From the NCBI GenBank assembly GCA_024741835.1, contig JAENRP010000188.1, positions 1 to 64,000 on the forward strand: a DNA stretch of 64,000 nt, in the 5' to 3' direction. The notes under the pieces were generated by a model. The model searched no databases and had not been told where the DNA came from. It saw only the letters and a program-made list of their open reading frames with translations. A program made the translations under genes and the position numbers. Shown here in pieces: positions 4,707-64,000 of this stretch. Origin of the DNA: Diplocarpon mali (lineage: Eukaryota > Ascomycota > Leotiomycetes > Helotiales > Drepanopezizaceae). Every line of letters starts with the position of its first letter. Position 1 is the first letter of the stretch.

Positions 4707-4729
4707 ACTCGCGGGCCGGGCCTAGGAGT
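4707..4729. repeat. 23-bp palindromic module in copia-A1, before protease
   Basis: A well-preserved copy of the dispersed palindrome: ACTCGCGGGCC, central G, GGCCTAGGAGT. It is read in frame as TRGPGLGV, about 15 codons upstream of the protease active site. Copia-A2 has two units at the equivalent place (34007 and 34061). Confidence 0.8.
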
Positions 4730-6116
4730 CAGTTCTTCTACTTATTTCTTATCAAAATTAAGGAATCGTTAGCTATACGATATAGGTACTAGTAAGCACG
4801 TTTCCAATAATCTCTTTAAGTTCACTTCCTATATTGCTTAAGACAATTTACCCTCCTTAAGTATAGTTAATAGATCTATTCAACCTTTCGGCATTGGCAC
4901 TTGTAAAGTTAATGCATTTAAATCCAATAGAAAGGTATATATTCTTAAGTTAATTAATACTCTTTATATACTTTAATCACTTATCTACTTATACTTAAGT
5001 GGCAAACTTAACAAAATCAAAGGCTTCTATCGAAATGGCAAGCTATTCTTATTTAATAAGAAGGAAATTTGCACTATCAATAATAATATATATATTAATA
5101 AGGAATAGCCTTCTACTAACTCCTCTAATTACATAAGTGGATATGCTCTCTTAGCTGCTATTAAGAATAGACCTTTTAATATTAAGCTCTAGTACTATCG
5201 ATTAAGCCACGCTAGCCTATAAACGGTCAGAAAGACCTAATCTACTATTACTAATATGCAAATTAAGGAAACGAAATTAAAGAAGATGCGAATTTGCGCT
5301 TCCTATAAGAAAGGCAAACCTCTCTAATACATTAATAAACGTTCAGCTCGCCTTCGACTTACAAAGGCACTTGATAAGCTATATATCAACGTAGTTCATT
5401 TAAAGCCAACTGGCCTTAACAGTTACAAATACGCCTCCATCTTCACTTACCTAGCTATAATAGCTAAATAGGGATAGACCTATATAAATAAATCTAATGC
5501 TTTTAAGGTAAATAAGAAAATGATCAGCCTTTTATAAACTTAGTATAATCGCATAATCAAGCGTTAGAGAACTAATAGAGGCAAGGAGTACTCTCCTATA
5601 TAGATGCGAATACTTATAGAAAACCTCGGTATGATTTTAAAGGAATCTACTCTATATATGCCAGAATAAGACGGCAGATCAGAACGATCAATTCGTATAT
5701 TAATAGAAAAGTTGCAAATAGCTATAATTAACTAAAATATCCTCTCCTTTCTCTAGCCTTACCTCCTTCTTTTGGTAATATATATCACTAATCTTACCGC
5801 CTTTAATATTCTCAGCAGCAAGACCCTATATAAGGTCTTTTAAGATAATATCGAGCCTAATAAGCCTTATACTCCCTTAATCAAGCATCTTCGAGTACTA
5901 GGCTATTGCGTTTATATACTAATTGAGAAAGAAAAGCGAACTTAAAGTAATAAACTCTCTCTAAGAGCAAAGGTAGGTACTCTTATCGGATTTGATAATA
6001 GAAGTATCTATCAGATCTATATACTATTATAAATAAGTAAAAAGATTATTCGATTATCTTATATTCGATTCGATAAAGACGGCCTAATTATAGAGCTGCA
6101 ATTAAAGGGTAATTTG

Positions 6117-6193
6117 ACTCCTAGTCTAGGACCGCGAGTCAATTCTAACTCTTATAATAATGATGATTTCACTCCTAGGCTAGGACCGTAAGT
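6117..6193. repeat. Pair of 23-bp palindromic modules in the copia-A1 integrase-RT linker
   Basis: Units at 6117-6139 and 6171-6193 start 54 bp apart (18 codons) and read TPSLGPRVNS and TPRLGPQVNS (stop restored to Q). They lie in a low-complexity linker just before a basic RKRGRPPS stretch. Copia-A2 has four units at the same site. Confidence 0.8.
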
Positions 6194-8069: not shown

Positions 8070-8092
8070 ACTCCCAGGCCAGGCCCGCGAGT
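8070..8092. repeat. 23-bp palindromic module near the copia-A1 3' end
   Basis: Reads ACTCCCAGGCC, A, GGCCCGCGAGT: one of the most intact copies. It lies downstream of RNase H, among three repeats of the form AAGGGTGATTTTTTT (7996-8065). The counterpart in copia-A2 is at 30532-30554. Confidence 0.8.
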
Positions 8093-8270
8093 TGATTTTG
8101 ACTTTTTTAAAGGGTGGATTTCCTACTCTAAAATAGAATGCGCTAGCGAACTCTACTCTATTTCCTATATCTGCAGGTTGATTTTTCATATAAAACTATA
8201 GATTATAACAAAAGTTATAATATCATATATATTACTAGCAAGTACCTTTAAAGGTCTCTCCAAAGGGGTG

Positions 8271-8503
8271 TATTGCAAGTATGCCTATTATATATTTGTT
8301 ATATGATCTATCATATAATATATCATATATATAATATATTATATGACTTGCCATATGACTTAGTGGCAGCCCTTGTTAAATAGCTCGTAGTTAGAGAGCT
8401 CTTATGAATCAAGACACCCAATATCGTCGTTTGCACCTTATACTTCTTCGTGCCCTCTTCTAGTTTACTATCAAGTTCACTATCAGAGAACCTCCTTGCT
8501 ACA
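8271..8503 (+). repeat. 3' LTR of copia-A1
   Basis: The repeat is 233 bp and ends CTTGCTACA, followed by the AATAT duplication. It is preceded by the purine tract AAAGGGGTG (8262-8270). Its start TATTGCAAG differs from the 5' LTR start by a RIP-type G-to-A change. A short antisense open frame across it is fortuitous. Confidence 0.92.
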
Positions 8504-8508
8504 AATAT

Positions 8509-11453: not shown

Positions 11454-11599
11454 CCCTTACTTAGACCTTACTCTAATTGACTTATAGTTAGGAAAACAAT
11501 AACTATCCTTTTGCGCTAATCCAACTCTTAGGTATCTCTTTAAATTAAAAAAAACAATCAATTAATAATAACCTTTATTAAAATCACTAATCCTACTTA

Positions 11600-14500
11600 T
11601 AGGGCAAGACTAGGAGTTAAATTTCCAAAAGCGTTCCTTTATAAGACTATATAACTTAACTTGCGGTCTAGGCCCAGGAGTTGTCCTTAAGCCTACTAAG
11701 CCCTTACTATCTTTTATAACTTTAGTATATCTTTAAATGCTTTGAACTTTGCAACTATCTTTAATAGCTTTGTAAATCCATTTGCTACTATTTAATTAGT
11801 TAGGATATAGGTAATTGATAACTTATTCTTTGCAATAAGGTTGTAGATAAAGTAGTAGGCAATATCGATATATTTCGATCGCTTATATAAGTATGGATTC
11901 TTTATAAGTGCAATCGCCCTTATATTATCTACTTAAAGATTAATATAATTCTTATCTTATCTAATATACTTAGCGAAACTTATATCTTTTAGAACTTAAG
12001 CGATCTATAATCCTTGCTTGCAATTTGATAATATCGATATATATTCTGCCTTAGTGCTTGCGGTAGCTACTGATTTCTACTTCCTACTTTCCTATAATAT
12101 AGGTCTGCTATATAGCACTAATACGCTTTTAAATATACTTTTCTAACTTTTCATATTTGCCTAGTCGGAATCGGTATATACCTTAAGCTTTACGCTTATA
12201 TATTTCGTTAATCTGTATCTTACCTTTTATATAATTGTTAATCGAAGGTATCTTTTAAATCGCTTGACTGCATTCTTATATTAAATCGTCGGATCCTTTA
12301 GGTTCTGACTAAGTTACCTAATAACAAAGGCGATATCTGGTCTTATATATACTATAGTATATATAATCGCTTTAATATCCTATTAATACTTCTTCAGATC
12401 TCCTTTTTACTCATTTTCATTAGTAAACTCTAACTTATTATACTTTCCTTCGATTGGAGTACGCTTTGGCTTAAAGTTGGGAGTAGAAGCGGAAAGTCCT
12501 ATTTAATCTAGGATCTTCTTAATATACTACTCTTAGTCCAACTAGAGTTCTTAAGTAGAGCGGTTCCTTATAATGCAGATGCCGAGGATCTTATAAATTC
12601 CCCTTAGATCCTTGGTATTAAAACGTTTCCGAATTATTATAAAGAACCAATCCAATTAAGTAGTTGTCTTTGCAGCTGTAGTAATATTATTAATATATAG
12701 TAGCAACTTGATTCTACGCTTAATATAGGTAAATAGACAAGGGTTAGCTAGGCTTTAAACGAATCCTATTTCTATTAAAGCAAAGCTATATAAGAGGTTC
12801 TAATCATAGGCTGATTGTTTAAGCTTATAAATACTGCAAAGTATATAAAGAGAGTGGCTAGCGCGTATAGGAATACTATTAGGTTAAGAGAGAAAAATCC
12901 GTTCCTTTATAATCGCTTTGGTAAATGCATTTTTAATATTATACTATCTACATTTAAGGTCCTTAGCGACTACTATTGCTATAAATATATAAAGGGTATC
13001 TATACGAACTATTAGCGCGAATATATTAAAGTAGTCTTCTTTATACTATTAGGAAAAGCCTTTAGCTATAAGCCTTACCTTATAACATTCTAGGGTCCTA
13101 TTTGCATATATCTTGATTATAAAGACCCACTTTATTAATACTAGGTTTACGTCCTTTAGCGTTAGTTCCTCTATCTATATACTATTTATAGTAAAAGAGC
13201 TTATCTCCTCTTAGATTACCTCACTCTATACTGCTCTATTCTCTAGATTATTAATAGCTTTATCGTACGTCTTTAGAAGAGAGATTTTCATTATCCTCTT
13301 AGCAGCTAGGAACGCATTATCTTTATCGAAGCTTTATTAAAGTTCGAGCTTATAGATCCTATGCGCTATTATAGCCTAGATACGCTTAAACTTGCGTTTA
13401 TCTAAGGTGTCTTCTAGTTCTAGGTCTCTATTCCTTTTTAAAGACATAGGTTCGGCTATAGGTTCTATAGGCTTATTATCTAAGGAACCGCTTTCTAATA
13501 GTAGAGGCTTATTATTACTTATACCTATTTCGGAAATATCCTTTACCTTAGGTGCTTTAACTAAAGGGATAATAATATTAAAGTTATTTTATACTTTAGG
13601 CAGTTCGCGGATAATAGGAATAGTTTATTCGGCCTTTAAGCGACTAATAGGTCGTCGATCAGCAAGTGCGCTTAATATACCTAAGCTAAGAGAAAGGGGT
13701 TATTAGTTCGGCTTAATAGTATTACTATTAAGTAGTATACCTTACAAATCTCTAGGTATATAAAGCTTTAAGGATAGCTCCTTCCTATTTTAAGCTTTAT
13801 TAAACTTAACTACTAAGGATATAATTACTCGCTTTAGATCTAGCATATATACTATCTATTGCTTTATTATCTATTTAATATACTTAATAAATACACATTT
13901 TCTACCTTGGTCTATTAGCTTCTTACTCTTTATACCCGTAGGCTAGGACTTCGGGCTAATATAAGAGTAGCAGACGCTTCTAAAGACGCAGATATAATCC
14001 AGGCTTAATTTCTATTTAAAATATGCCTTATATAGTAATATTTAAGTACTATTGACTATTAGTCTACTACCTATTCTATTTCATAGGTATATATCTGCCT
14101 TAACCGCAAGGTCTTAGAATTCTAGTAGTAGGTTAGCATCTTATAATAGAGCGCGATAGTCAGTCTTTGCTTACTAAATGCTTTGCTTAGTAATACTATT
14201 CTAATAGGAACCTTTATATATTATAATTGGTTTATAACAAACTCCTTATTTTGCCTATTTATTAAGCTTTACCTTAATCTCTAATGTATTATTAGACTTA
14301 ATAGCTATTAGCTTTAACTAGGTCCAGCGTTCCTTTATTACTTTCCAAGTTTCTAGCTTTTCTATAAGCTTAGATTTAGTCCTAGCGCAAATAGTCCATA
14401 TTTGCTAAGTAGAGTTATCTACTATTTAAGAAAACTAATTATTTCCTTTAATTAAGGTTATAAATAGTCCAGTAGTATTAATAGATATTAGCGCTAGTAT

Positions 14501-16696
14501 CGAATCTTTCTATAGACTAAGCTTAATTTGCGTCCGATTTCGAAGTTTTATTAGCTTATAAATTCGGTATACTAGGCGATCCTTTAGTACTTAGATCTTC
14601 CATTTTAGGATCAAGACCTTATATAAGCCCTTCAATTTCTCTAGCTTTAAATATGCGAATCTTCTATATATTAGCTAATACCTTAATAGGCTTTCGACTT
14701 TTAATAGCTTTAATAGCCTATTATCAGTTGATGCTTTATTATCAATAGCTAGTAAGGACTAATAATAGCAATTTAAGGTTTTACCATTTTCTAATTACAA
14801 GCCTAGCTTAAGAGTTGTTTTTAATAAAACCGCAAGATCCACTTGCAATCCTAGCTTAAGAGTCGATTTCCTAGAAATAGCAAGATCTACTTGCAGTCCT
14901 AGCCTAAGAGTCATTTCTGCGAATTTTACTTACAATCCTAGCTTAAGAGTCATTATTAGCAAATTTGCAGAATCTACTTGCGGTCTTAGCCTAGGAGTCA
15001 TTTCTATTAAATTCACTTATAATCCTAGCTTAAGAGTCATCTTTAAAGATACCTTGCAATCTACCTATAGTCCTAGCTTAAGAGTCCATCTATTCTCCTT
15101 ATCCTTGCTCAATTATATTAAGGTAGAGAGTGCACTTTCCTTAAAGGAATCTACTTATAAGTTTAGCTTAAGAGTCAATTTCTATAATATTACCTTTAAG
15201 ATAATATAAAGTCTATCTTTAATTTTAGCCTTAAAGATCACTTTATAATTATTATTTATAAATTATATAAATTGATTATTAAAAACTCCTATACAATTCA
15301 ATTTTATATAAATCTTATAATTAGATAAAAGATTAATACCTAGGCTAAGTATAAGGAGAACATTTTGCAAAAGGAAAGAAATGCTAGCGATATTCATCTC
15401 TACTATACCTATTAAGTCTATATACAACCTTCTATTACCAACCTTAATAGAGCGCCTTTTTATTTTAGTAAGCGGGCCTTTAAATAGGTAGGGTTTATCA
15501 ATTATATATATTATATAATTAGTATTACTATACTAATCGGATTTAAGGATCTTATAAAGATCGGCTTTTAAGATATAAGCATCTTTATTATAATTATCGT
15601 TTAAATTATCAAAAGTGGATTTAGGTTCAGATAACCTACTATTATTATTAAAGGTATCTACTAAAGTTTTAGCTAAATAGCCTTTTCCTTTGCCTTTCTT
15701 TAATAGTTGCGGCCTTTAGTAGGATAAGGGCAGTTTGCTTCTTAACTTCTGCTTCGATTACTTTTTAATATTAAAGCTAGCGATTATATTAATCAATTGC
15801 CTTCTAACTTTACAATTAGTAATATTATAAGCACTATTATAGAAGTAGCATCCCTAATAAGCTTAAGGGCTCGTCCCGCGCTCCTTCCTCTTCTTAGGCT
15901 TATTATTGCCTTATAATACGGCGTTTGCCGATTTAAAGCGTCCTTTAAGGTCTTACTTAATAGTTTAAAGGAGGTCGATCTTCTTATAGATCTTAAGGTT
16001 AAGTTAAATAAGAAGGGATTATTTTATAATAGCAAACTTAAGAGGGAGGCTATTAAATAAGAAACTAAAAAGCTGAGTTTTCTTAAAAGTTATAGCTATC
16101 TTAGGATTTGCAGCTCTTACTCTTCTTCTCGCTTTATATAGTATAGATTAAGTAGAGTCTATATTTATATCTATATCCTTACTATCTTTATCTTTTCTAT
16201 ATTAAAATAAAGTGATCTGCTATAGTAGATACTAGGTATTAATAGTAGTTATTTAAGAGTATTTTACTTTTAAAGTATCTTATCTTATCTTTCTATTATT
16301 ATAAACTTAAATAAAATCTCGATCTTTATCGCTTAAACCTTTATTAATCTTAAGCTTATATTTAACTAAGGCTAGCCTATACTCCTTCTCCTTTTTCACA
16401 TTTAAAATCTACCTTTAGGATTCTTAGTTATTATCTACTAAAGCTCTTAAGCTAAGCTTATTTAATATATCTAGCAAATCCTTAGCAGTTATATTAGCTA
16501 TTGAAGTAGAAGTAGATAAATCAGTAGAGGGAGTATAAGGGGCTATTCTTATGTATTTAATAAGTGTCTTTTAAATCGCCATTTCAATACCTTTGCTCTT
16601 AAAGTAAAGCTCTAAATCGTCGAACTATTATTGCCAGTTCTTTTAAGAGAGTTAAAGGTCTTTAGGCCTAGTGTTTCGATCGGAATCAGAAGCCAT
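11600..16696 (-). pseudogene. copia-B2 Gag-Pol polyprotein, RIP-inactivated
   Basis: The likely start is the ATG at 16696 (MASDSDRNTRPKDL). Gag is followed by a zinc knuckle CYFYNSAYNITNCKVRRQ at about 15860-15800 (ancestrally CX2CX4HX4C). Protease follows at 15530-15350 (IGIVEMNIASISFLLQNVLLI). Then come the palindrome array (14793-15175), GAG-pre-integrase and integrase (14650-13850; TTGLFITLIKGNN and the C-terminal YISPKS part), and reverse transcriptase (13120-12530; YDIKNAFTEA and YINNITTAA, ancestrally YVDD). RNase H is at 12200-11760 (VATASTKAEYISI, RSKYIDIAYYFI). Numerous TAA/TAG codons replace Gln/Trp. The domain order is standard copia; the array between protease and integrase is the unusual part. 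Confidence 0.93.
14793..15175. repeat. Array of eight 23-bp palindromic modules inside copia-B2
   Basis: Units start at 14793, 14841, 14889, 14928, 14976, 15015, 15063 and 15153. Start-to-start distances are 48, 48, 39, 48, 39, 48 and 90 bp, every one a multiple of three, with spacers of 25, 16 or 67 bp. On the coding minus strand each unit reads like TLKLGLQVDLA (RIP has changed Pro/Arg codons), so the array adds a repetitive linker between protease and integrase without shifting frame. Best-kept unit: 14976-14998. Confidence 0.88.
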
Positions 16697-17297: not shown

Positions 17298-18741
17298 TAT
17301 TCGGCCTTTAGGCGACTAATAGGTCGTCGATTAGCAGGTGCGCTTAATATACTTAAGTTAAAAGAAAGGGGTTATTAGTTCGGCTTAATAGTATTACCGT
17401 TGAGTAGTATACCTTGCGAATCTCTAAGTATATAGAGCTTTAAGGATAGCTCTCCCTTATTTTAAGATTTATTAAACTCAACTACTAAGGATATGATTAC
17501 TCGCCTTAGATCTAGCGCATATACTATCTATTACTTTATTATCTATTTAATATACTTAATAAATATATACTCTTTACCTTAGTCTATTAGCTTTTTACTC
17601 TTTATACCTATAGGCTAGGACTTCGGGCTAATATAAGAGTAGTAGACGCTTTTAAAGACGCAGATATAATCTAGGCTTAGTTTTAATTTAAAATATGCCT
17701 TATATAATAATATTTAGGTGCTATTAACTATTAGTCTACTACCTATTCTATTTTATAAGTATGCGTTTACCTTAATCGCAAGGTCCTAGAATTCTAATAG
17801 CAAGTTAGTATCTTGCAGTAGAGCGCAATAGTCAGTCTCTACTTATTAAATGCTTCGCTTAGCGATGCCATTTTAATAGGAACCTTTATATATTATAGTT
17901 AGTTTATAATAAACTCCTTATTTTGCCTATTTATTAAGCTTTGCCCTAATCTCTAATGCGTTATTAGATCTAATAGCTATTAGCTTTAATTAAGTCTAGC
18001 GTTCCTTTATTACTTTCTAAGTTTCTAGCTTTTCTATAAGCTTAGATTTAGTCCTAGCGCAAATAGTCTATATTTATTAAGTAGAGTTATCTACTATTTA
18101 AGAAAACCAATTATTTCCTTTAATTAAGGTTGTAAATAGTCCAGTAGTATTAATAGATTTAGCGCTAGTATCGAATTTTTCTATAGACTAAGCTTAATTT
18201 GCATCCGATTTCGAAATTTCATTAGCTTGCAAATTCAGCATACTAAACGATCCTTTAGTACTTAGATCTTCTATTTTAAGATTAAGACCTTATGCAAGCC
18301 TTTTAATTTCTTTAGCTTTAAATGCGCAAATCTTTTATATATTAGCTAATACTTTAATAGGCTTTTGGCTTCTAATAGCTTTAGTAGCCTATTATTAATC
18401 AATACTTTATTATTAGCAGCTAGAAAGGAATAGTAATAGTAGTTTAAGGTTTTGCCATTTTCCAATTGCAAGCCTGGCTTAAGAGTCGTTTTTAATAAAA
18501 TCGCAAGATCTACTTGCGGTCTTAGCTTAAGAGTCGATTTCCTAGAAATAGCAAGATCTACTTGCGGTCCTAGCTTAAGAGTCATTTCTAACAAATCTGC
18601 GAAGTTCACTTATAATCTTAGCTTAGGAGTCATTTCTGCGAATTTCACTTGCGATCCTAGCCTAAGAGTCATTATTAGCGAATCTGCAGAATTTACTCGC
18701 AAGCCTGGCCTAGGAGTCATTTCTACTAAATTCACTTATAG
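17298..18741 (-). pseudogene. copia-B1 integrase and palindrome-array fragment
   Basis: This continues copia-B1 to the right of copia-B2 and aligns with 13626-15022 of that element. It holds the integrase remnant (17300-18350) and then the palindrome array. From 18464 the array units start at 18464, 18512, 18560, 18608, 18647, 18695 and 18734, the last being split by gypsy-C1. A short minus-strand open stretch at 18346-18609 is the true coding frame (TLKLGPQVDLAISRKS repeats); the plus-strand frame over the array is its shadow. The sequence resumes at 21673. Confidence 0.85.
18464..18741. repeat. Palindromic module array in copia-B1, left part
   Basis: Seven units, spacings 48, 48, 48, 39, 48, 39. 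The array resumes at 21677 after gypsy-C1, with further units at 21717, 21756 and 21846, giving ten units against eight in copia-B2. The unit at 18695-18717 (ACTCGCAAGCC, T, GGCCTAGGAGT) is among the least mutated. Confidence 0.85.
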
Positions 18742-19299: not shown

Positions 19300-20900
19300 A
19301 TTTCTAACCTTTTTAATATAAAGAAGTTTAATTAGCTATAATAGCTACTTTAAATAATAGCAGTTTCGAGTATTTATATAATACTAAATAAAAGCTCTAA
19401 TCGGAAGTATCTCTTTAGTTTTCTTAAAAAGCTAAATCGGATACTTTAGCCGCCTTTACTTAATAGAACTCTATTCTTTACTTTAGAAATAATCCTTAGG
19501 ATATACTAATTTTAAAAACTAATAAGAATTGTCTTAAAAGCTAAGATAAATCTTTTTTACAAATTCTATCTTAAAAATTAGTCTTTAACTTAATAAACCT
19601 TTTCTTACTATTAGTGATTATAATACCCTTATTTGCTACTTTGCACCTACTCAAGAAGTCTTAGTAAAGTATAAATAAACTTTTTATAAAAGCCGGATTT
19701 TCACTCTTAGGCTAGGCCTATAAATAGGAATATAAAAATGCAATTTTATATAACTCGAGTTCTTTACCTTCCCCTTTAATAACTGTACTTGCTTTTTTAA
19801 TATTAATACTTGAAAATACTAAAAATATCAATTTTAAACCTCTTTCTAACCTTTTGCTCGAATCTTTTTAAGCCTATCCTAATTACTCTAAGATTAACTT
19901 AGATTCTGAAAACTCTTTAAAATACCTTAAGCCTTATATTCGACCTAGCTCCCCTTTTATCGAAATAAATAAAGCGATAATAGCTGCCTTTAAAGCTATT
20001 ACTAATCATTTTCCCCTTCTTAGTTCCCTTAGCGCTCCTTATTTTACTAAAGCTAATATTACTAATTTCCTTAAATAATATAAGAAGACTTATTATAATT
20101 TTAATATTAAATATAATAAGATAATTAATTAACTTCTTTACTATTGCAATCAAATTAGCAAAGATATTATTAAATCTCTACTTAAGTAGAAGCTTTGCAA
20201 ATCCTAAGAACTCCTTATTAAGGCTTTTAAATCTGAATTTTAGGAATTTAATAGATAGCAGATTTGCAATACTTTAGCCTTTTTAAAGGAGTTTATTCTT
20301 ATTACTTACACTCTTAAGGAACTTAAAAACTACTATCGGACTTTTACTTAAGTGTCGAATACCTTAATTAATTAGAATATTCTTAGTAAAGTTGAAAAAG
20401 GATGCCTTTTTTTACTTAAATTACTTATTAGCCTTTAAAATAGGATTATTAAGCATTTTAGAATTAATAAGCGTAATCTTATAATATACGCTTAATTCGA
20501 AGACTTCTTAACCTTTGCCTTAAAATCAGACCTTAGTAAAAGGACTATTAAGGTAATAGAAAAGGAGAAAGAGCCTACTTCCTCCTTTACTAAAGATCTT
20601 AAAAGCCTAGTGCAAGAACATTCGAAGGCTTTAAAGGTTATTAAAAAGGTAAAGAAAAATCTAATAGTGATTCCCTTTACTTGCAGTCCTAGCTTAAGAG
20701 TAAAATCTGCTTTAAAAATCAAGGAACTTAAAGCTTAGTTTTCTAAACTTTATATTTAATATTTAAAAACCTTAATCGAAGGCCTTCTTTAAGAAACTTA
20801 TCGCGCCCTTTAGTTTGATAATCGATAGGCTTTAAAAGGTAAAAACTAATACGTAAACTTTAAATACCTAAATCCAGCTTCCCTTAAGTTAAATAAGCGA
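19300..20900 (+). pseudogene. gypsy-C1 gag remnant
   Basis: This matches the gag of gypsy-C2 (35790-36650) and gypsy-C3 (about 52600-51700). Recognisable phrases are INKAIIAAFKAITNHFPLL (about 19960), ANITNFLK (20050), FALKSDLSKRTIKVIE (20515) and VKKNLIVIPF (20655). A palindromic unit at 20679-20701 is read in frame as TCSPSLRV at the same position as in C2 (36529) and C3 (51850). The zinc knuckle present in C2 and C3 is missing because the deletion begins upstream of it. TAA/TAG codons are frequent. Confidence 0.75.
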
Positions 20901-22116: not shown

Positions 22117-22189
22117 TTATTAATAACTCTTTCGCTTCGCTAAAGATAGCATTATAATATCTATTTAATTTATCCTTAGTAGTCGACCG

Positions 22190-32437: not shown

Positions 32438-32616
32438 ACTTGCGGTCCTGGCCTAGGAGTGAAATTATTATAAGAGTTAGTATTAACTCGCGGTCCTGGC
32501 CTAGGAGTGAAAATATCGTTTTTATAAGAGTTAGAATTGACTTGCGGTCCTAGCTTAGGAGTGAAAATATCGTTTTCGTAAGAGTTAGAATTGACTTGCA
32601 GTCCTGGTCTAAGAGT
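32438..32616. repeat. Four palindromic modules in the copia-A2 integrase-RT linker
   Basis: Units at 32438-32460, 32486-32508, 32540-32562 and 32594-32616, with start-to-start distances 48, 54, 54. The spacer carries AAGAGTTAG(A/T)ATTG repeats. Copia-A1 has only two units here, so the block expanded or shrank by whole in-frame units. On the coding minus strand each unit reads like TPRPGPQVNS. Confidence 0.85.
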
Positions 32617-34006: not shown

Positions 34007-34083
34007 ACTCTTAGACCTGGCCTGCGAGTGGAAATTGGCCTTAAGGAGGAGTTGGAATTGACTCCTAGGCCCGGCTCGCGAGT
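34007..34083. repeat. Two palindromic modules before the copia-A2 protease
   Basis: Units at 34007-34029 and 34061-34083, 54 bp apart. The second is nearly intact (ACTCCTAGGCC, C, GGCTCGCGAGT). Copia-A1 has one unit here (4707). Confidence 0.82.
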
Positions 34084-42599: not shown

Positions 42600-45500
42600 T
42601 ATAAGAAGTAGATAATCTTAAAAGATTCAACTCGAATTCGTAAGTCCTTTAAATAGTCTTCTTTAAAGGTAATAGGCTAGATTCTTTAGATTGCTTAACT
42701 TAATTATCAGTTCTATTATCACTTTAGAGTCTTCTTCTCTTGCGTTAGTTCTTACCTCTTAGCGTTTTTACTAATTTAGGTAACTGAGGTTCATTTGAAC
42801 CATCTTATAGGCTTAAGCTAGCTAAGTCCAACCTCACTCGTAGACCAGGCTCGCAAGTCAGTCTTAGCGTTTCTAAGCTTAAGGGTAAAAATAGGAGATT
42901 GGTTCCTAAATCAAAGTCTAATACTATACTAGCATCTCAGTTTATCTCTTTTCCGAATTTTCTTATAATAATGCCTTTATTAATTAATGCATTAAGCTCT
43001 TAGATAGCATTTACTTTATCGCATTATCTTTAAGACTTAAGTTTATAAAGAAGCGACTTAGTATTTATAACGTTCGTCTAGGCCTTAATAAGGGTATTAA
43101 AGAGTTTTTAATTATATTTTGCAAAGTGGATTTTCAATTTATCCTTATTAAGAAGGAATAACTCCTATACTTTAGTTATAATAGAAGGATCTATCTAAGA
43201 GCGCTAACTAATAATAGCTTTAAAGAGGCTATTACAGTTCTTAAGATGAAAAGCTACTTTAAAAGGTGCAGTAGTTCTACTTGCGTTAATCTATTAAAGT
43301 ATTAGAAGTTGCTTTAAAGTAAAGATTGAAAAGATAAAATCGGAGATTTAAGTCTTATTTTCTAAGGTATTCTTATTAAAGACGGCTATATAGTTATTAT
43401 AAAAGGTTATAAAACCACTAGTCTTATAAGAATTATCCAAAAGCATTTTAAAAAGGTATCCTTATTTTATTATTATTATAATTAGATTACTATTATTAGT
43501 AATAGGTCGCAAGATCTCCTTTTACTTTAATTTTATAATTATTTAAGCTAATTGAGATTTTAAACTGAGTGCTTAAGAAGTCTATTGACTTATCTTCTTT
43601 GCAAATGGAATGAGTTTTATAATCGATTGAAAGCCGACCTACTTATTAAGGCTTTTAAAAGCTGGCCCTTATCCGATTAGTAGGATCTAATAATCTAAGA
43701 CTTGCTTTTTAATAAAATTGACTCGCGGGCTAGGATTATAAGTAAAAATCGGAATTTCTTTATTAATAGCACTTGCATCTCTCTTTATTAAAACAACTTG
43801 ATTATAAAGACTAAGGCTAATTAATTAAAGAGGTTTAAAGTAAGCTATAAGTTGATAGGTTCCTCTACTTCTTACTATTATAGCTAAAAGGTAAAGTCTA
43901 TAGTACATTTAAAGGACTTATTAAGTAAGATTAAATATTATATTATAAAGAAAATAAGAAGGTATAAAGGTTATGCTATTTATAAGGTAGAAGTAATAAA
44001 GATATATCTTTGCTTTTTATCTTATAATAAAGAGGAATATACTTATAAAAGTACTATTATTAGTAGTAAAATTGTCAGTTAAGAAGCGGTATTCGAAGGG
44101 CTTAGGCATTATAATTGACCTTTCTTCCTTTATTTCCTCTTGCTATTTATTACTTAATAATATTAATAAGAAGGAATTGTTCTATTCAATCGGCTCTAAT
44201 GCTTTTAAAGCTTTAGGATCAGCCTTAAATTTTACAATACTTAAAGATGCCTTTATTATTAATTGATTGGATTTGCGTATCCTTAAAGAGATAAAGAACT
44301 AATTATTAAAGTAGATTAGAAAAAGATCGACATTTTCTACTATATAAAGAAGTTTAAAGTATTTAATAGTTTTATTAATATTAAATCCTTTCTAATTAAG
44401 ACTATAGTAAATCGAAAGAGAGCAAATATAAAGGTCGCAAAGTCTTCTCCCTTTAATTCCTATGCTAAGAAGATATTATCGAAAGCGAGTCTTTATTATA
44501 AAGGATACTTAAATATTACATTATTCTTTAAGCTTAAGGTTAAGAATAACCGATTAAGGCATATTATTATAATTATAAATGTTTTAATTAATAGATTCCT
44601 TTTTATATTCTCTTTCTTATAAGATAAAATAGTCTCATTTGACATTTAAAAGACTAGGTTCTTAACTTTTATAATTATTAAAGAATTGAATAATATTTAT
44701 AAGGGCGAACTCGTTTAAGATAAGCTATTGAATCTATTTAATAGCTCTTTTAATTATCTTTAGAGCAATTGGAATAGGGTCTTCTCTTATATTATTATTT
44801 TTAAAATAGTTATATATAGATATAAAGAAGTTAAGAATTAGCTCCTTTAAGTTATTAAGGAAGGAGTTTAAGCAAGCGCGCAATCCTTTGGTTTTAAATT
44901 GCAAATTAGTTAAAGTGGCTATTAAATGATCTATCCTTCTTAAAGGTTGAGCTAAAATAGGTCATTTAGCTAAAGGAGAGTCCTTTAAAGATTTTGAAAA
45001 TTCTAAAGAGGCTACGCTAAGCGTTTAGGTAGTTTGTTTAATAGCGGTTTCTAGAATTATTTTAATAAGAGGCAGGTTAGGTCTAGTTTTAAAATTCTTA
45101 TTTCTAACTCTTAGTTTAGGACCGCGAGTCAAATTATATAGTTTAGCACTTATTATATCTTTAGGTTAAAAAGCGAATTTTAAAGTAGGCTTAACTATAA
45201 ATAACCAATTCCCTTCTTTATTATTAAAGAAATCTCGTTTAAACCTTAATATAGGAGTCTAATTCTCTTTTAAAATAAGTAAACTATAAGCAGAAGCGCA
45301 AAGCCTTAGTATATTAATAATAGTACTATTAGGTAGGGTAATATCTATAGCTTAATTTGATCTTTTTATAGCCTTATTAGCTATTATAAGTATTGCATTA
45401 GATAAGCCTATAAATCTGCGACTGCGAATTCGATTGCCTTAGAATTTTACTACTCCTTTTTAAATAATAAAGAAATTGAGAATTTGAATAGCTTTAGCTA

Positions 45501-45954: not shown

Positions 45955-46299
45955 TTATGAATTCTTTAAAGGCATATTACTTATAAAAGATAGGGAGTAT
46001 AAATAAGAGAGTTTAATAGGATATAAGAATTAAAAGGGCATATAAGCTGCAATAGGTTTACTATATATATATTAAGGAAATTGGACTTTTTATTTATTAT
46101 TTAAGGAAAGTAATAGGAATGCTATAATTAAAGGCTAATATTAAGAATGTAAAATAAGTTAGAGTAGGTAAGAATTTAAGGTAATTTTAAAAGATCTATA
46201 TCTTAAATAATAAAGGAGGCGACCTTGCTAAAAATATAAAAATAAGGATTATAAAAAGGTAGGACAATTAATAGGCTAGGAAATTATTTAATATTCCCA

Positions 46300-49200
46300 T
46301 CTGCATTCTTCGGATATTTTAAGAATAATAACTTAAGGTTATAATTTATTAGGTATTTTGATATTCTTTACTTGCGGGATTGGCTTATAAGTTAAGTTGG
46401 AAAAATCTTAGTCTTCGTTTAAGGGTTTAAAATTGCTTATATTACTATTAGTTTTTATAAAAGATTCGAAGGTTATATTAATTTCTAATTCGTCTTTTAA
46501 AGGGAATAAGGTCTAATTGCATTAATAAAAGTGCTTCAGTCGGTTAACTGCAAAGGTTCTTTTAATATCAACTCTATTAAGTTCCTAAAGAGAATAGTAT
46601 CCCTTTTCTTTCTACTTAGACTTAACCTTAAATAGACTAAGCTATTAATAGTCAAGTTTAGTATTTGCTAATATATTAATACTTCTTATAATATTATAGA
46701 TTAAGATAAGATCATCTTTTCGAATAGGGTGCGTTTTAAGTACTTTAGAAGCAGCTTATACTTCTTTAGCTTTTTCCTAATATCGTTTCTTTCGCAAAAT
46801 GATTTCCTCTATATCTATATCTTAAAGCTTAAGTTATTAGTATCTTATTATAAGTAAATCGGAATAGTTCTGAATTTGACTATAGTCGAATAATCTTTAA
46901 ATAGACTATTAGGATTTAAAAGGGAGCTATGCCTCTTTACTATAGATAAGGAAAAATAGTATAACTCTAATTGATTTATAAATTATCATTCGATAAGTAA
47001 AAAGTATTTTATAAAAGTGTTTTATCTAATTCTTAAATCCTCTATAAGTAACTTTAGATAGCCTATTAAGAATGTTATAATATCCTTGCTCTACTACTCT
47101 ATTAGCTTTCGAGTTATACGCTAAGATTTAAACCTATTTAATACTATATTTTTATAAAAAAGCTTTAACTACTCCTTTATTTTCAAGGCCTCTATTAATA
47201 GTTAATCTATTAAAAAGTCTATAGCAATAGACTACATCTTCTTAAAGGAACTTTATAATAGATTTAAAGTTAGCAGATCTTAAAGGTCGCCCTTTAAGCT
47301 ATTTTAATAGGTTTTCCTTTATTAGAATAAAATATATAATCCTATTTTCGATTATTAGTACTTATATAATATCAAGACTAACTTTATAGAAAAGGCCTAA
47401 TAGCTAAGTTAAGAATAAGGGATTCTTTTTACAATTAGGTTTTCGTTTTTAATAAGGGATGCAACTTTTTATAAAGGCTTTACAGTCCTTAAAAGAACCC
47501 TTTTAAAAGAATTTCCTTAAGAGTTAGTAGTAGGTGGACTTAGCTCCTTAGTGGCCAGTTTCCTTATAAATATCCTAGATAGCCTTAGCTTATAGTTTAT
47601 TATTATCTAAATAGAGCTATATAGGAAATAAGTTATTACTCCTTTTAAATAATTGCCATTCTTATACTAGATAAATCAAAGCTTTAGCTTTAAACTTTTG
47701 AAAATCCTTAAGAGGAACTGTCTTTAGTTGTTTAAGCGTGATTAAAAATTTCGCGATTTCTTTAGAGTCACTTAAGTAGTTAGGTAATAAAATTCTCTTA
47801 TTTAACTCATAGGCCGGGATTAGGAGTCAAGTCCCTTTAAGGCAATATATTAATAGATAATCAACTTCGTTCTCTACCCACTTATTAATATCTATTTCGT
47901 CTTCTTTAATTAAATCAAAGGGGTAAGGGCAAGTTCTTTTTAAAAGGCCGTTAGTAGTAGTGTTTTTCATTTTTAAAATTTATTTGACTTTAAAGTCCAT
48001 TAGTCTTATTTAAGCAATCCATTTTATTAGCAAAGCTCTTAATAGGTCGCTTATAGCTCTATTCAATTATTCTACTAATACTTTAACATTAGTTTTAAAG
48101 ATGAAGTAAGTACTATAAAGGTCGCTTCTTATCTTTTTTATTACCTTTAAAGCGCTTTTGCATTCCTATTTAATAATATTATACTTTATCTCTATTAGAT
48201 TCTAAAGACTACTTTCAAAGCAAGCTAGATATCTTTTCTATTAGCTATTAGCTTATTAAAAGACGGCATCCTATCTAATTAAGCTTATATCAACTATTAG
48301 TATAATTGGCCTAGCGTCGGCTCTATAGTCTATTTTAATCAGATATAGCGCTTTAAGTAACGCTTGCTTTAGTTATTTCATAGCCTCTATTTAAGGTTCC
48401 TCCTATTAAAACTCAGCTCCTTTCCAAAATAAGGAGTAAATAGGTACTGCCTTTTTAGCAAAATCCTTAATCTAAATGCAATAGTATACTATAATACTAA
48501 TAAATGCGCAAGCTTTTGCTATATTATTATACCTCTTCTATTTATCGATTTTAAGTACTTTAGCCCTCTAAGGACTTCGGCTATTAGAATCAGTAATAAA
48601 ACCAACAATTTCTATTAATAGAAGATAGTATTATAACTTTGGACCAACTATTGCTTTTACCCTTTCGAATCGTATAAGCACTTAATTTAAGTTCTAAATA
48701 TATTCTATTATAAATTACTATATACTAAAGAGAACTTCTTTATAGTTATAAAATGATCTTAATCCTTTTACTCTTATATTATTTATATAAAAGAGCGTAA
48801 TATTAGGTATACAATCTACTAGTATCTTATAGATTACTTAAATAAATTAAGCGATCGAATTTATAGCCCCTTAAGGTAATCTTATTATTTAAAGTAGCTT
48901 AAGAGGGGTTTAAATTGCTATTATATCTTTCGATTTAATATTAAGAATGAATTAGTTATATTTAAAGAAGAAGTTAATAAGAGAGCTATAAGTTAATCTT
49001 ATGAATTGATTTAAGAACTTATCTATATTCAAAAGAACGTTAGCGTCTTTAATAGTTACTTAGTTTATCTTTACTACTACTATTATTAGTTTATAAGTTC
49101 CCTTCTCTTTCTTAATAACTAAGAACTATTTGTTCTTATAAGGGCTATTATAGAACTCGAGAATACCTTACTTTAGCCTATCCTTTAATATTTCGATTAC

Positions 49201-50600
49201 CTTTTCTTAAAGAGCTTTAAGGACCTCGAATGTTTTCTCTTACTAGGCTTTGTAGGGTATTATCTTAATCTTAATATAAGGCGTAACCTCTTCTTAAATC
49301 TGGCTAAGTTCCGTTTAATTAAAAGCTAAGGCGTCCTTTCGATTTATTAAGGTTTTATAAAGTAGTTTGCATTCTTACTTTATTAAGTCTTCTTTAATTT
49401 TTAATATATTAAAACGTTCTTTTATTAGCCGATATCCAATAGGTTTATTAGAAAATCTACCTATAATAAACTTATCGAATTTACCACTTAGCTTTAAAGG
49501 TCGAAGCTTCTTATCTTATTTAAACTAATTATCTAGTTCTTTAGGCTTTAAGCTATTAGAGATTCCTTAATCTACCGGTTATACTTTATTAGCTTTGCTT
49601 TTATATATAATTCGAATATTAGCTAATACTATATTTCTTTACTTCTTTCCTTTTTTATCAAATCCTATAAAACGGTTTGAATTTTCCTTTTTAAAAATAA
49701 ATAAAAGATTTTCTAAGTCGTTAATTTAAAGTGTATAAATAGAAATGTTATTAGTAATTTTATTGTTTTTTACTCGCAGGTCCGGCCTATAAGTGGTTTT
49801 TAGGTTTTTCAAAATGATTAGTAAACTATTGAAATTTATAAAACAAACCCTCTTTTCTACCTTATTTTTCTTTTTTCTTAATTATTAATCTAATAAAACG
49901 CTAATTATACTATTTTTCAAAATTCCAGATTTAACTCCTAGTCTAGGATTGCGAGTTAAATCTCTATTATTTAAAATCGGCAAACTTACCTTTCTTTTGC
50001 TATAACTCCTTATTAAGTGCCTTCCTTTATTAGCATTAAGCCTAGCTCTTATACTAGCTAATCGTTTCCTAAAACCTTATTTTAGAATTCGACTATATCT
50101 CTTATAATAACCATTTATCTTTCTAAAGATCGATCTATATTCTAAAGATTAGCTTTTATAAGACTATCTCTAGGATAGTTAAATATTAGCTAAGATTTTA
50201 AAATAAAGGGTATTTTTAAAAGAATATCATTTAAAGAATTCTCTATTATTAGAAAGTCAGTATAATTAACGATTCCTTTAACTCTAACCTTTACATTTTT
50301 CACCTATCTATCAAAATTGTATTTTAATCTAAAGATAGTCGAATAAATAAGGAGTCGATCGCTAACGATTATCAATCGAGCTATTTCTACCACTTTTCTA
50401 ATTATTATATTAACTTTTAAACTACAATCGATCAAAGCCTTTGCTTTAACTAATTCTTTTATTAAATAAATAATAATAGGGCTTTTTATTATAACTACTA
50501 AACAATTTCGATTAATATTCTAAAATATTAAAGCTATTACCATAATATTATAATACCTTTAGGTTCCTTCGTTTTCTATAATCTAAAGACATTTGATTAA
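46300..50600 (-). pseudogene. gypsy-C3 protease-RT-RNase H-integrase remnant
   Basis: Standard gypsy order on the minus strand. Protease at 50560-50150: AKALIDCSLKVNIIIRKVV, then NYTDFLIIENSLNDILL. RT at 49200-48700: LKDRLKQGILEFYNSPYKNK, LPQGAINSIA and FYINNIRVKG (ancestrally YIDDV). RNase H at 48370-47930: VDISLI and LYSTYFIFKTNVKVLVE. The integrase zinc domain is at 47580-47470: GHQGAKSTYYQLLRKFF, CKAFIKSC. The integrase core is at 47350-46800: STYNPKAN-type block and GHYNILNALSKI. The closest family style is the fungal gypsy type with DKSRDMTAF/LPQGATNS-like RT. Palindromic units lie at 49934, 49772, 47805 and 46370. RIP stops throughout. Confidence 0.88.
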
Positions 50601-53799: not shown

Positions 53800-53803
53800 A
53801 TAG

Positions 53804-55221: not shown

Positions 55222-56640
55222 ATGACCTCTAATCTTATACCACTTAAAAGAAATAAAAGGTTAATTGTACCTTTACTACTAGGCCTTATTACTATCAGTT
55301 CTATAGGCCTTATTACTACTAGTTCTATAGGCCTTACTGCTAACCCTAGTCCTAGAGATATTCCTCCTCTTAAGCCTACTTAAGAAGAAACCTCCCTTAA
55401 TACAGATTTTACTCCTAGGTTTAGCCTATAAGTAGATTTTCAAAATACCCTATTACTATTAATTAAAGTTAAGGAAGAAGATACGCTTTCCTTAATAATA
55501 TCTACCTTTACTATATCGGCCCCTCTTTTCTTAGCTGCTTAATAGGCTGAAATCGCGAATCTTATTAGCGCTACTATAGCTACTGCTCTTTAAAATAATA
55601 CTATCGCCCCTTTTTCCTTAAGTACTAGTCCTTAGAATACTTAGTCCTTTACTGCCGACTTACTGCCTCCTTTAGACTATTACCTCTTAATCATCCGACC
55701 TTTAGTCTTAGCTATCAACCCTTATTAGATTAAGTACCTTTAAATCCATTTTAGCAACTATTAAGGCGAAATCACTTATAACGCTTAAAAGATAATTATA
55801 AAGGTATTTATTTAAAAGTACTTAAGCAACTTTACTTTAAAAAAGGATTAGATTACTACTTACTTTAAGTTTATAATAGGTAAAGCTTAAAACCTAATCC
55901 TATAATATATAGATCCTATCTTTACTAATAAGTTTATATATACTATTAATATCCTTAAGGTCTTAAATTAGAGGTTCTTTAATTATAATTATATTTAGTT
56001 TACTAAGCTTAAATATAATAGGCTAATTATAGGTTTAATATTATATAATAAGTTCTAATCTAAGTTTATTACCTTTACTATAGCTAATAAGATTGATTAA
56101 TTTTACTAATTTGATAACATTTATAAAAAGGTCTCCTTAGCTTTAAAGAACAACCTTTAAGTAGAGAAGTATAAAATAAATAATAATTATACTACTTTAG
56201 ATAAGTTCTTAGTTATTATAGACCGCAAGACTTATAATATTAAGTAAAAAGAAGCCTATAACGCTTAATAAATCGCCTTTGCTATTGCATTCTCCCTTTT
56301 AAAGGACTGCGTCCTTAGTATATTGAAAAGGGAGTTATAAAGACCTATAGCTATAGCTACCTCCTTAGCTCCTTATACTCGTTCCCCTTTGCCAGCGGCC
56401 TATTAAGAAGGGTCTGCTAGCCTAAAGCTATTATCTAGTCTCTACTATAATTGCAAAGCCTTTAATTATTATATAATAGATTGCCTTAAGCTAAAGAAAT
56501 AAGGTAAGTTTATAATAGCTAAAGTTAAGATGGAAAATGACCTACTATTAGGAAACTGCTAAGCTATAGTAAAGACTCTTATTATAGTATAGGTTATAAT
56601 TTATAAAAAGACTTAGATTTTGATTCCTGCTTATTAATAG
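55222..56640 (+). pseudogene. gypsy-D1 gag remnant
   Basis: The likely start is the ATG at 55222 (MTSNLIPLKRNKRLIVPL), followed by three 8-codon near-repeats (GLITISSI, GLITTSSI, GLTANPSP). A palindromic unit (55411-55433) lies in frame as TPRFSLQV. The body matches fungal gypsy Gag (YYLLIIRPLVLAINPYQIKY, FIYTINILKVLN), and a zinc knuckle YYNCKAFNYYIIDCLKLKK is at 56445-56500 (ancestrally CX2CX4HX4C; one Cys and His now Tyr). TAA/TAG codons are at expected Gln/Trp positions. The gypsy-D2 copy at 27112 covers the second half. Confidence 0.82.
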
Positions 56641-59129: not shown

Positions 59130-59197
59130 ACTCCTAGGCCCGGCCTATAAGTGACTTTAGCGCAGATCAATTCCACTCCTAAGCCCGGCCTATAAGT
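59130..59197. repeat. Pair of palindromic modules in the gypsy-D1 RNase H-integrase linker
   Basis: Units at 59130-59152 and 59175-59197, again 45 bp apart, reading TPRPGLQV and TPKPGLQV in frame (stops restored to Q). The same period as the other gypsy-D pair, but a different location. Confidence 0.87.
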
Positions 59198-60837: not shown

Positions 60838-60854
60838 TCAAAAGGGGAGGGTAG
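60838..60854 (+). promoter_or_regulatory. Polypurine tract of gypsy-D1
   Basis: AAAAGGGGAGGGTAG directly before the 3' LTR. It encodes the last residues and the stop, as in gypsy-A1. Confidence 0.75.
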
Positions 60855-61098
60855 TATTACGGCTATATCATATGCATAGTTATATTACGTAGCGAAGTCA
60901 GGTGCACGCTAAGGTAGCGAGGTGGCTAAATCACGTGCACGCTAATGAAGCACCTGTACTTATTCTGGAGGAGCTCTACTAGAGACTCTCTCTTCTTCTT
61001 CATCTTTTCTTCTCTATTATATAGCGTACCTCTTGAGGTAATACAGTCAGCGTTACTCGATTATCGCCCCTCTATACGCTCCAGAGCAAGTCGTAATA
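60855..61098 (+). repeat. 3' LTR of gypsy-D1
   Basis: 244 bp, TATTACGG to GTCGTAATA, followed by the ATTAA duplication. Confidence 0.92.
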
Positions 61099-64000
61099 AT
61101 TAATTATACTGACTTTCTAATAATAGAGAATTCTTTAAACGATATTCTTTTAAGAATGCCCTTTATTTTAAAATCTCAGCTAATATTTAACTATCTTAGA
61201 AATAGTCTTATAAAAGCTAGTCTTTAGAATATAGATCGATCTTTAAAAGGATAAATAGCTACTATAGGAGATATAGTCGAATTTTAAAACGAGGTTTTAA
61301 AAAACAATTAGCTAGTATAAGGGCTAGGCTTAATACTAGTAAAGGAAGGCACCTAATAAAGAGTTATAATAAAAGGAAGGTAAGTCTGCCGATTTTAAAT
61401 AATAGTAATTTAACCTACAGTCCTGGCTTAAGAGTCAAATCTGGAATTTTAAAAAATAGTACAATCGGCGTTTTATTAGATTAATAATTAAAAAAAAAGA
61501 AAAATAAAGTAGAAAAGAGGGTTTATTTTATAAATTTCGATAATTTACTAATTATTTTAAAAAACCTAAAGACCACTTATAGGCCGGACTTATAAGTGAA
61601 AAATAATAAAATTACTAATAATATTTCTATTTATATACTTTAAATTGACGACTTAGAAAATCTTTTATTTATTTTTAAAAAGGCAAATTTAAACCGTTTT
61701 ATAAGATTTGATAAAAAAGGAAAGAAGTAAAGAAGTATAGTACTAGCTAATATTCGAACTATATATAAAAGTAAGGCTAATAAAGTACAACTAATAGATT
61801 AGGGAATCTCTAATAGCTTAAAGCTTAAAGGCTTGAATAATTGGTTTGAATAAGATAAGAAGCTTCGACCTTTGAAACCGGGTGGCAAATTCGATAAGTT
61901 TATTATAAGTAGATTTTCTAATAAATCTATTAGATATCGGCTAATAAAAGAGCATTTTAATATGCTAAAAATTAAAGATGATTTAATAAAGTAAGAAGGC
62001 AAACTACTTTATAAAACCTTAATAAATCGAGAGGACGCTTTAGCTTTTAATTAAATAGAACTAGGCTAGATTCGAGAAGAAGTCATACCTTATATTAAAA
62101 TTAAGATAATACCTTATAAAGCTTAGTAAGAGAAAACATTTAAGGTCCTTAAAGCTCTTTAAGAAAAGGTAATCGAAATATTAAAAGATAGGCTAAAGCA
62201 AGGTATTCTCGAGTTCTGTAATAGCCCTTATAAAAACAAATGGTTCCTAATAGCTAAGAAAGAGAAGGGAACTTATAGACTAATAATAGCAATAGTAGAG
62301 ATGAACCGAGTAACTATTAAGGATACTAATATCCCTCCGAATATAGATAAGTTCTTAAATGAATTTATAGGATTAACTTATAGCTCTCTTATTAACTTCT
62401 TCTTTAGATATAACTAATTTATTCTTAATATTAAATCGAAAGATATAATAGCAATTCAAACCTCTCTTAAGCTACTTTAAATAATAAGATTACCTTAAGG
62501 GGCTATAAATTCGATTGCTTAATTTATTTAAGTAATCTATAAAATACTAATAGATTATATACCTAATATTACGCTCCCTTATATAGACAATATAAGAGTA
62601 AAAGGATTAAGATCATTTTATAATTATAAAGAAGTTCTTCTTAATATATAACGATTTATAATAAAACACATTTAGAACCTAAACTAAGTACTTATACGAT
62701 TTAAAAGGGTAAGAGTAATAGTTAGTCTAAAGTTATAATACTATCTTTTATTAATAGAAATTATTAGTTTTATTACTAATTCCAATAGCCGAAGTCCTTA
62801 AAGGGCTAAAGTACTTAAAATCGATAAATAGAAGAGGTATAATAATATAATAGAAGCTCGCGCGTTTATTAGCGTTATAGTATACTATTGTATTTAGATT
62901 AAGGATTTCGCTAAAAAGGCAGTACCTATTTACGCCTTATTTTGAAAAGGGGCTAAGTTTCAATAAGAGGAACCTTAAATAGAGGCTATAAAACAACTAA
63001 AGCAAGCGTTGCTTAAAGTGCTATATTTGATTAAAATAGACTATAGAGCTAACGCTAGGCTAATTATATTAATAGTTGATATAAGCTTAATTAAATAGGA
63101 TACTATCCTTTAATAAGCTAATAGCTAATAGAAAAGACATCTAGCTTGCTTTAAAAGTGGTCTTTAGAATCTAGTAGAGATAAAGTATAATGCTATTAAA
63201 TAGGAATGCAAAGGCGCTTTAAAAGCAATAAAAAAGATAAGAAGCGACCTCTATAGCACTTACTTTATCCTTAAAACTAATACTAAAGTGCTAGTAGAAT
63301 AATTGAATAAAGCTGCAAGTGACCTACTAAGAGCCTTGCTAATAAAATAGATTACTTAAATAAGACTAATAGACTTTAAAGTCAAATATATTCTAAGAAT
63401 AAAAAATACTATTACTAATAGCCTTTTAAAAAGAACTTATCCCTACCCCTTTAATTTAATTAAAGAAGATAAAATAGATATTAATAAGTAGGTAGAAAAC
63501 GAAGTTGATTATCTATTAATATATTGCCTTAAAGGGACTCGACTCGCAGTCCTAGCTTATAAGTTAAATAAGAGAATTTTATCACTTAACTACTTAAGTA
63601 ACTTTAAAGAAATCGCAAAATTTTTAATTACGCTTAAATAACTAAAGACAGTTTCTCTTAAGGATTTTCAAAAGTTCAAAGCTAAAGCTCTGATTTATTT
63701 AATATAAAGAAGGCGGTTATTTAAAAGGAGCAATAACTCATTTCCTATATAACTCTATTTAAATAATAATAAACTATAAGCTAAGGCTATTTAAGATATT
63801 TATAAGGAGATAGGCTACTAAAGGGCTAAGTCTACTTATTATTAGCTCTTAAGAAAATTCTTTTAAAAAGGTTCTTTTAAAGATTGTAAAGCTTTTGTGA
63901 AAAGCTATATCCCTTATTAGAAACGAAAACCTAATTATAAAAAGAATCCCCTATTCCTAACCTAGACATTAGGCCTTTTTTATAAAATCAGCCTTAATAT
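61099..64000 (+). pseudogene. gypsy-C2 protease-RT-RNase H-integrase remnant, runs off the window
   Basis: The last visible segment of gypsy-C2, the plus-strand counterpart of gypsy-C3 50260-47430. Protease end at 61104-61330 (NYTDFLIIENSLNDILL). RT at 62160-62660: LKDRLKQGILEF, WFLIAKKEKGTYRLI, FRYNQFILNIKSKDIIAIQT. RNase H at 62990-63450: QALLKVLYLIKIDYRANARL, LYSTYFILKTNTKVLVE. Start of the integrase zinc domain at 63790-63920 (YYQLLRKFF, KDCKAFVKS). Palindromic units at 61413, 61575 and 63542 sit at the same places as in C3 (49934, 49772, 47805). Whether this copy also carries ORFs X and Y lies beyond the window. Confidence 0.88.

Follow-up and report, generated by a model that had tools for sequence, protein, structure and literature searches.

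How did one 23-bp palindrome come to lie within retrotransposons of unrelated families? The question is raised by a stretch of 64,000 nucleotides from the fungus Diplocarpon mali (assembly GCA_024741835.1, contig JAENRP010000188.1, positions 1 to 64,000; hereafter the window), in which the palindrome recurs in copia and gypsy elements, at unrelated positions and mostly in a single reading phase. Our answer is tentative and is held with less than even confidence: an ultra-short, frame-preserving palindromic module may have been copied some 20 or more times, in either orientation, into unrelated long terminal repeat (LTR) retrotransposon families by microhomology template switching, and may then have been inherited. 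The main rival explanation is a selected linker peptide.

The genome searched comprises 49.4 Mb in 676 contigs, and all genome counts come from this one genome; about 0.3 Mb of DNA was read besides the window. Its gene-rich compartment has a GC content of 46 to 68% per kb (ten 6-kb samples), and the other compartment consists of AT-rich transposon blocks. The window is of the latter type (26 to 36% GC per 2 kb), and its dinucleotide ratios (TpA/ApT 1.47; (CpA+TpG)/(ApC+GpT) 0.55) are what we take to be the signature of repeat-induced point mutation (RIP). Since stop codons are frequent, scans of the window for open reading frames (ORFs) were uninformative. The letter N occurs 72 times within 24001-28000 and 37 times within 36001-40000.

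Abundance and structure of the palindrome

When the window was searched with the 23-mer of the initial annotation, 13 sites were found at up to three mismatches (0 expected) and 55 at up to seven, against 0, 1, 0, 1 and 0 in five Markov shuffles. A neutral site score, in which transitions (C/T, G/A) cost 0.35 each and which also served for the column variability described below, gave 53 sites against 0 in each of three shuffles. Across the genome, the 23-mer with up to three mismatches had 1176 forward and 1234 reverse matches, of which a few sites may match both strands (control 0 and 0), a degenerate self-complementary 23-mer had 4337 sites (reversed control 1), and the near-unmutated form had 208 sites at up to one mismatch (control 0). 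Chance or base composition as the origin is rejected by these shuffles and genome controls. The initial annotation had described more than 50 copies, in both orientations, and had proposed the genome-wide search; the recurrence, the orientations and those coordinates that we checked are right, and the motif is abundant throughout the genome, but as a count of events the figure is too high, because homologous sites and local tandem duplication make up many of the copies. Exact matches in IMG/VR are attributed to chance (GC 0.56 to 0.60, no second copy at up to six mismatches), and a gypsy-D stretch coding LPEPRLGVD holds no convincing palindrome.

The form before mutation, ACTCSCGGKCC-N-GGMCCGSGAGT, can be read from two copia copies that are almost free of RIP (L069, C185:1256-4000, and L078, C21:6211-9000; GC 0.46 and 0.43). 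The palindrome is near-perfect: its single central base is free, and its usual mismatch lies at columns 5 and 19. The consensus of the initial annotation matches genome-wide but is itself already mutated, with CCTAGG where the near-unmutated copies have CCCGGG, a difference of transitions. The near-unmutated copies are more GC-rich and carry the better palindrome, and RIP mutation as its origin is therefore rejected. Most copies seen are heavily mutated; these two, of the copia-A/B group, suggest recent activity. The mismatch between C5 and C19 is kept in 21 of 30 position clusters, an asymmetry that points to common descent.

The unit measures 23 bp, or about 35 bp with degenerate flank boxes. 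As a tendency, the flanks on both sides read outward N-R-A-W-T-Y: among 87 flank clusters, in which array neighbours are not independent, 86 have R at position 2, 62 have A at position 3, 78 have W at position 4, 59 have T at position 5 and 73 have Y at position 6. Past position 6, the likeness of flanks between families is no greater than that of random transposon DNA. A larger shared unit was rejected on the same ground, the sole strong match (14928 with 21756) being a copy of the same array. An RNA hairpin as the basis was likewise rejected, as the folding of four copies is unremarkable (z -2.17 to 0.07, none strong).

Unrelated families, unrelated positions and one prevailing phase

Two copia groups carry the palindrome, and so do two or more families of gypsy type; in all it occupies 20 to 30 positions, in both orientations. 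The initial annotation had listed copia-A, copia-B, gypsy-C and gypsy-D as carriers; these stand, and a third copia group also carries it (11595 to 11659, 14793 to 14976 and 18464 to 18695). What had been called gypsy-C together with ORFs X and Y (37501-53100, minus strand) looks like a single element of about 14.5 kb, judging from homology and site spacing (C1, C4). This long gypsy element has two neighbouring ORFs, A and B, each of about 1000 residues or more and 27% identical to one another, with no Pfam match at E up to 10. A less mutated gypsy-D copy (L067, C4:224000-233500) has a probable LTR pair of 257 bp, 91.8% identical. The genome search gave a single DDE_1 match bearing on DNA transposons as possible carriers. 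The sites in the window are as follows (RT, reverse transcriptase).

4707..4729, minus strand: copia-A palindrome between the Gag and SH3 matches, in opposite orientation, phase 0
6117..6193, plus strand: two palindromes arrayed in phase 0 (6117, 6171), in the stretch that separates the SH3 and RT matches of copia-A
8070..8092, plus strand: probably non-coding palindrome a short way before the 3' LTR of copia-A, homologous to 30532
11595..11681, minus strand: two palindromes of the third copia group upstream of RT (11595 in phase 1, 11659 in phase 0)
14793..14998, minus strand: five-palindrome array, placed in the third copia group by homology, phase 0
18464..18717, minus strand: six-palindrome array in a second copy of the third copia group, 18608 strongly mutated, phase 0
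19703..19725, plus strand: phase-2 palindrome close to one end of the long gypsy element, with homologues at 29837 and 52859
20679..20701, minus strand: phase-0 palindrome of the long gypsy element in what is presumed to be gag, with homologues at 36529 and 51850
30532..30554, minus strand: copia-B palindrome 3' of RT, homologue of 8070
32438..32616, minus strand: copia-B array of four palindromes in the integrase to RT linker, phase 0
34007..34083, plus strand: two phase-0 palindromes in the stretch that separates the Gag and SH3 matches of copia-B, running against the coding strand
38994..41254, minus strand: four phase-0 palindromes (38994, 39816, 41046, 41232) within ORF B of the long gypsy element
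42836..45129, minus strand: three phase-0 palindromes (42836, 43721, 45107) within ORF A of the long gypsy element
47805..49956, minus strand: palindromes in pol of the long gypsy element, 47805 in phase 2, 49772 and 49934 in phase 0
55411..55433, plus strand: palindrome in the 5' part of gypsy-D, with near-unmutated homologues in L100, L101 and L105
57198..57265, plus strand: gypsy-D array of two palindromes upstream of RT, 45-bp period, phase 0
59130..59197, plus strand: gypsy-D array of two palindromes in the RNase H to integrase linker, 45-bp period, phase 0, with 1 to 4 units elsewhere
61413..61597, plus strand: two phase-0 palindromes (61413, 61575) in another copy of pol from the long gypsy element, the second in the window
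63542..63564, minus strand: palindrome homologous to 47805, phase 2

In copia, sites occupy the interval from the Gag match to the SH3 match and that from SH3 to RT; in gypsy-D, they occur between RNase H and a weak match to the integrase zinc domain. The linker positions given by the initial annotation thus hold for these domains, but the protease it had named as a neighbour has no Pfam match. Its statement that family members have positions in common was correct for 20679, 36529 and 51850, which align. Positions 8070 and 6117 share a 16-bp left flank, GAAATCACCCCTTAAT, and the palindrome at 8070 may be derived from that at 6117. The nearby 3' LTR is indicated by the stretch 3029 to 3257, which recurs near 8270 to 8500, and the T runs adjoining the 8070/30532 position vary in length.

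Frames were fixed by Pfam matches for copia-A (Gag, SH3, RVT_2), copia-B, the third copia group, gypsy-D and pol of the long gypsy element; the remaining ones are low-stop frames or follow from homology to a clearer copy (36529, 51850 and the third copia group's arrays), a weaker kind of assignment. No frame was available for 12 of the 55 sites (8070, 13934, 21109, 21232, 21717, 21756, 21846, 29837, 30532, 38569, 46370 and 55411). Among the 44 framed sites, 39 are in phase 0, four in phase 2 (19703, 52859, 47805 and 63542) and one in phase 1 (11595), so that the initial claim of in-frame occurrence describes the majority but not these five. By eye, the 11595 copy is without a 65-bp unit that is seen in L038, and therefore its frame may be shifted. 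When homologues and arrays are collapsed by hand, phase 0 is found at about 16 of 19 positions. The unmutated unit contains no stop codon in any of the six frames, hence stop avoidance does not explain the phase.

We examined constraint on the unit as purine/pyrimidine variation over 21 to 33 collapsed positions, depending on the threshold. At the strictest threshold, variation inside the unit occurs only at column 5, which reflects orientation, and at columns 9, 12 and 15. The latter three, together with the W and N columns of the flanks, are third codon positions in phase 0, and flank variation is also highest at third positions. By permutation, p is 0.001 to 0.010 for the 35 columns that remain when 5 and 19 are excluded, and 0.055 to 0.079 for the unit alone when its centre is excluded. 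The other third-position columns, 3, 6, 18 and 21, are invariant (0 of 21 at the strictest threshold; 1 of 33, in column 6, at the laxest), even though ACT makes up no more than 53 of the 104 Thr codons in two near-unmutated copia copies. There is thus a trace of coding constraint together with an identity at the DNA level that codon choice does not explain. We read this as a polar DNA unit of common descent that has long been translated.

From the other families and the gene-rich DNA that were sampled, the palindrome is absent. Of 12 copia loci centred on RT, it was present in the two that belong to copia-A/B and in none of the ten from other families. Nine of ten gypsy RT loci (families E and F) are without it, and the single site at the tenth (L088) belongs to long-element sequence that adjoins it; both tests covered 2.5 to 3 kb around RT rather than whole elements. 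The RNase H to integrase linker of gypsy-D holds the palindrome and extra residues, and the linkers of E and F are shorter, these families being too distant for a clean border. Ten 6-kb samples of gene-rich DNA contained 0 sites. On contigs C1 to C5 (2.49 Mb) we counted 49 degenerate-form sites by hand, none of them in C2 or C5, and ten site-bearing regions from C1, C3 and C4 all match transposons of the window. Likewise, 16 of 16 near-unmutated copies, chosen among 50 listed of the 208, lie at transposon positions known from the window, and no insertion into a host gene was seen in the portion sampled.

The palindrome also multiplies in place. For the RNase H to integrase linker of gypsy-D, 104 candidates were scored, of which about 13 were beyond measurement and 91 were measured, mostly by length only. 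Among the matches listed, 45 copies fit the one-palindrome query without a change of length and 46 are longer (37 by 45 bp, six by 90, and single copies by 54, 108 and 135). The eight longer copies that were read contain two to four palindromes, in keeping with the added length, and every extra unit has its own palindrome. By eye, the 54-bp form repeats the left flank of the first unit, which indicates that units arise by tandem duplication around the palindrome. Spacings within the arrays of the window range from 39 to 54 bp (13 to 18 residues) and are all multiples of three except 11595/11659.

Origin of the unit

In the explanation that we tentatively favour, the unit would pass between families by microhomology template switching at RAWTY boxes, either during reverse transcription in particles that contain RNAs of several families or in DNA repair. 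If RAWTY-N-palindrome-N were copied into a RAWTY target, 5+1+23+1 = 30 bases, or ten codons, would be added, and the frame would be kept in any target. The targets that usually survive would be linkers rich in Asp/Asn-Ser, in which RAWTYN is read as two codons, and this would produce the common phase. The palindrome could then promote short tandem duplications around itself, giving units of 45 to 54 bp. A bolder version, which we regard as doubtful, makes the unit a nuclear, gene-less selfish module of 23 bp that lives only in LTR retrotransposons, moves during joint copying of their RNAs, adds about ten codons to hydrophilic linkers via the 5-base RAWTY microhomology, and multiplies by palindrome-centred duplications; it would be a parasite of parasites and at the same time a joint for the shuffling of polyprotein domains.

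Many non-homologous, mostly in-frame positions in unrelated families, with no flank homology beyond 6 bp, argue against chance and also against one ancestral domain. Descent of all copies from such a single domain, which the initial annotation had set against a mobile module, is accordingly not what we found, the flanks being unrelated beyond 6 bp between families. The related notion that local minisatellites had a single origin, in a linker domain ancestral to all these polyproteins, and were then inherited is very improbable and already largely refuted: several positions are indeed arrays grown in place, and 8070 shares a flank with 6117, but the copia and gypsy polyproteins are unrelated there and differ in domain order as well. 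Spread from a longer parent transposon with these ends seems unlikely from the DNA that was fetched. In the fetched DNA, where two loci were entered twice, 268 arm matches lie inside full sites and 11 alone (four cut by the locus end), against 7 to 12 lone arms in four shuffles, and spacer variants of 2 to 30 between the arms gave 0 matches genome-wide. The terminal repeats that a miniature inverted-repeat transposable element would share with a longer autonomous element are thus at chance level in that DNA, yet genome-wide lone arms exceed the control, 88 to 47. Many of these 88 matches are copies of a repeated half-site, ACTCGTAGGCCT with C or T after it (for example G000:C1:379017).

The excess of lone arms is one of several points that weigh against the template-switching module. 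No clean empty site was found within any family and no insertion event was seen directly, so the sites are old; the discrete unit at many non-homologous, mostly in-frame positions agrees with the mobile module that the initial annotation had proposed, but current mobility does not follow. Among the 91 measured copies of the gypsy-D linker none is shorter than one unit, and a zero-unit state is therefore missing there. When RAWTY direct repeats were tested, z was 2.11, 1.77 and 1.85 for periods of 29, 30 and 31, against -1.7 to -2.2 for inverted repeats; these statistics lean weakly to a direct over an inverted repeat and do not single out 30 bp. Reverse transcription as the route is conjectural. 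Finally, ORFs A and B of the long gypsy element share two palindrome positions at 27% identity, which is more conservation than a neutral insert would show.

Because of this sharing, real weight must be left to the main rival, although we consider it somewhat unlikely: the peptide [DN][SF]-T-[PR]-G-P-G-P-[RG]-V-[DN][SF] could be under selection as a spacer or as a signal for processing between polyprotein domains and could have spread through recombination among elements, with the DNA palindrome as its by-product. The prevalence of phase 0, the linker positions and the confinement of variation (apart from column 5) to third codon positions, in the flanks likewise highest there, all speak for a peptide. 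Such selection does not account for the frozen third-position columns 3, 6, 18 and 21 at the observed use of ACT, nor for the two orientations, the phase-2 copies and the probably non-coding position 8070/30532. A cis-acting DNA site, for instance one bound by a dimeric protein or used in recombination, kept in several copies per family, would agree with the dyad symmetry, the outer arms frozen even at third codon positions, the probably non-coding copy and the 45-bp unit spacing at several places. We nevertheless hold a cis site to be improbable: the asymmetry of columns 5 and 19 is conserved, columns 9 and 15 do not covary (Fisher p 0.64), positions and numbers vary freely between families, and other copia and gypsy families are without the palindrome in the stretches read.

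Relation to known short elements

Ultra-short palindromic dispersed elements are already known from organelles and bacteria, and the VAR1 clusters of yeast and the byps of Magnusiomyces are analogues in addition to those compared here. The GC42 clusters of yeast mitochondria are 42 nt long, with a putative AG target duplication and presence or absence at homologous positions (PMC4478555). They resemble the D. mali unit in being very short, GC-rich, palindromic, interspersed and present in many copies, with RNA-mediated copying suspected there too; they differ in being mitochondrial, whereas the D. mali unit is nuclear, 23 bp long and inside retrotransposons, with no empty site seen. MUSE1 of Podospora and the PstI palindromes of Neurospora mitochondria are likewise ultra-short dispersed elements of filamentous ascomycetes, the latter GC-rich palindromes, but they reside in mitochondrial genomes, and the available passages of PMC7218506 do not mention a reading-phase bias. 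The D. mali unit is, like these, a short, dispersed, palindromic and GC-rich sequence. It is present in some and absent from other, distant gypsy families, without clean borders, and within a family only copy number changes, with no zero state among the 91 copies measured; as for a target-site duplication, there are RAWTY boxes on both sides and the weak direct-repeat signal at periods 29 to 31.

The initial annotation had compared the unit with the Rickettsia palindromic elements, which are palindromic and interspersed, often lie in frame within coding regions and encode a conserved peptide (PMC10969869). The palindromic and in-frame character carries over, but those elements are bacterial, about 150 bp long and inserted in unrelated metabolic genes; the D. 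mali unit has 23 bp, at most about 35 with its flank boxes, and was found in retrotransposons only, as sampled. The host-gene part of the analogy therefore fails, given the 16 near-unmutated copies at known transposon positions and the empty gene-rich samples. Palindromic amphipathic repeat coding elements (PARCELs; PMC2996958) share a dyad-symmetric coding repeat, variable tandem arrays and, in some taxa, an association with mobile elements, but they encode a 25-residue amphipathic domain in long tracts of membrane-targeted proteins; compared by description, the D. mali unit encodes an 8-residue peptide with periods of 13 to 18 residues. In the way it works, the unit comes closest to the ultra-short palindromes known from fungal mitochondria, but we place it neither among those nor among the Rickettsia elements. 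A literature search by sequence strings and topic, with subscription papers largely outside its reach, yielded no description in which we recognised this element.

If the explanation that we tentatively favour is true, a nuclear unit confined, as far as seen, to retrotransposons, biased in phase and present in two orientations would show the smallest mobile DNA in a new niche, and standard retrotransposon assays could then be used to test how such elements spread. Even if selection has acted on the peptide, the same 23 bp in copia and gypsy polyproteins would mean that sequence has been exchanged between unrelated retrotransposon families.

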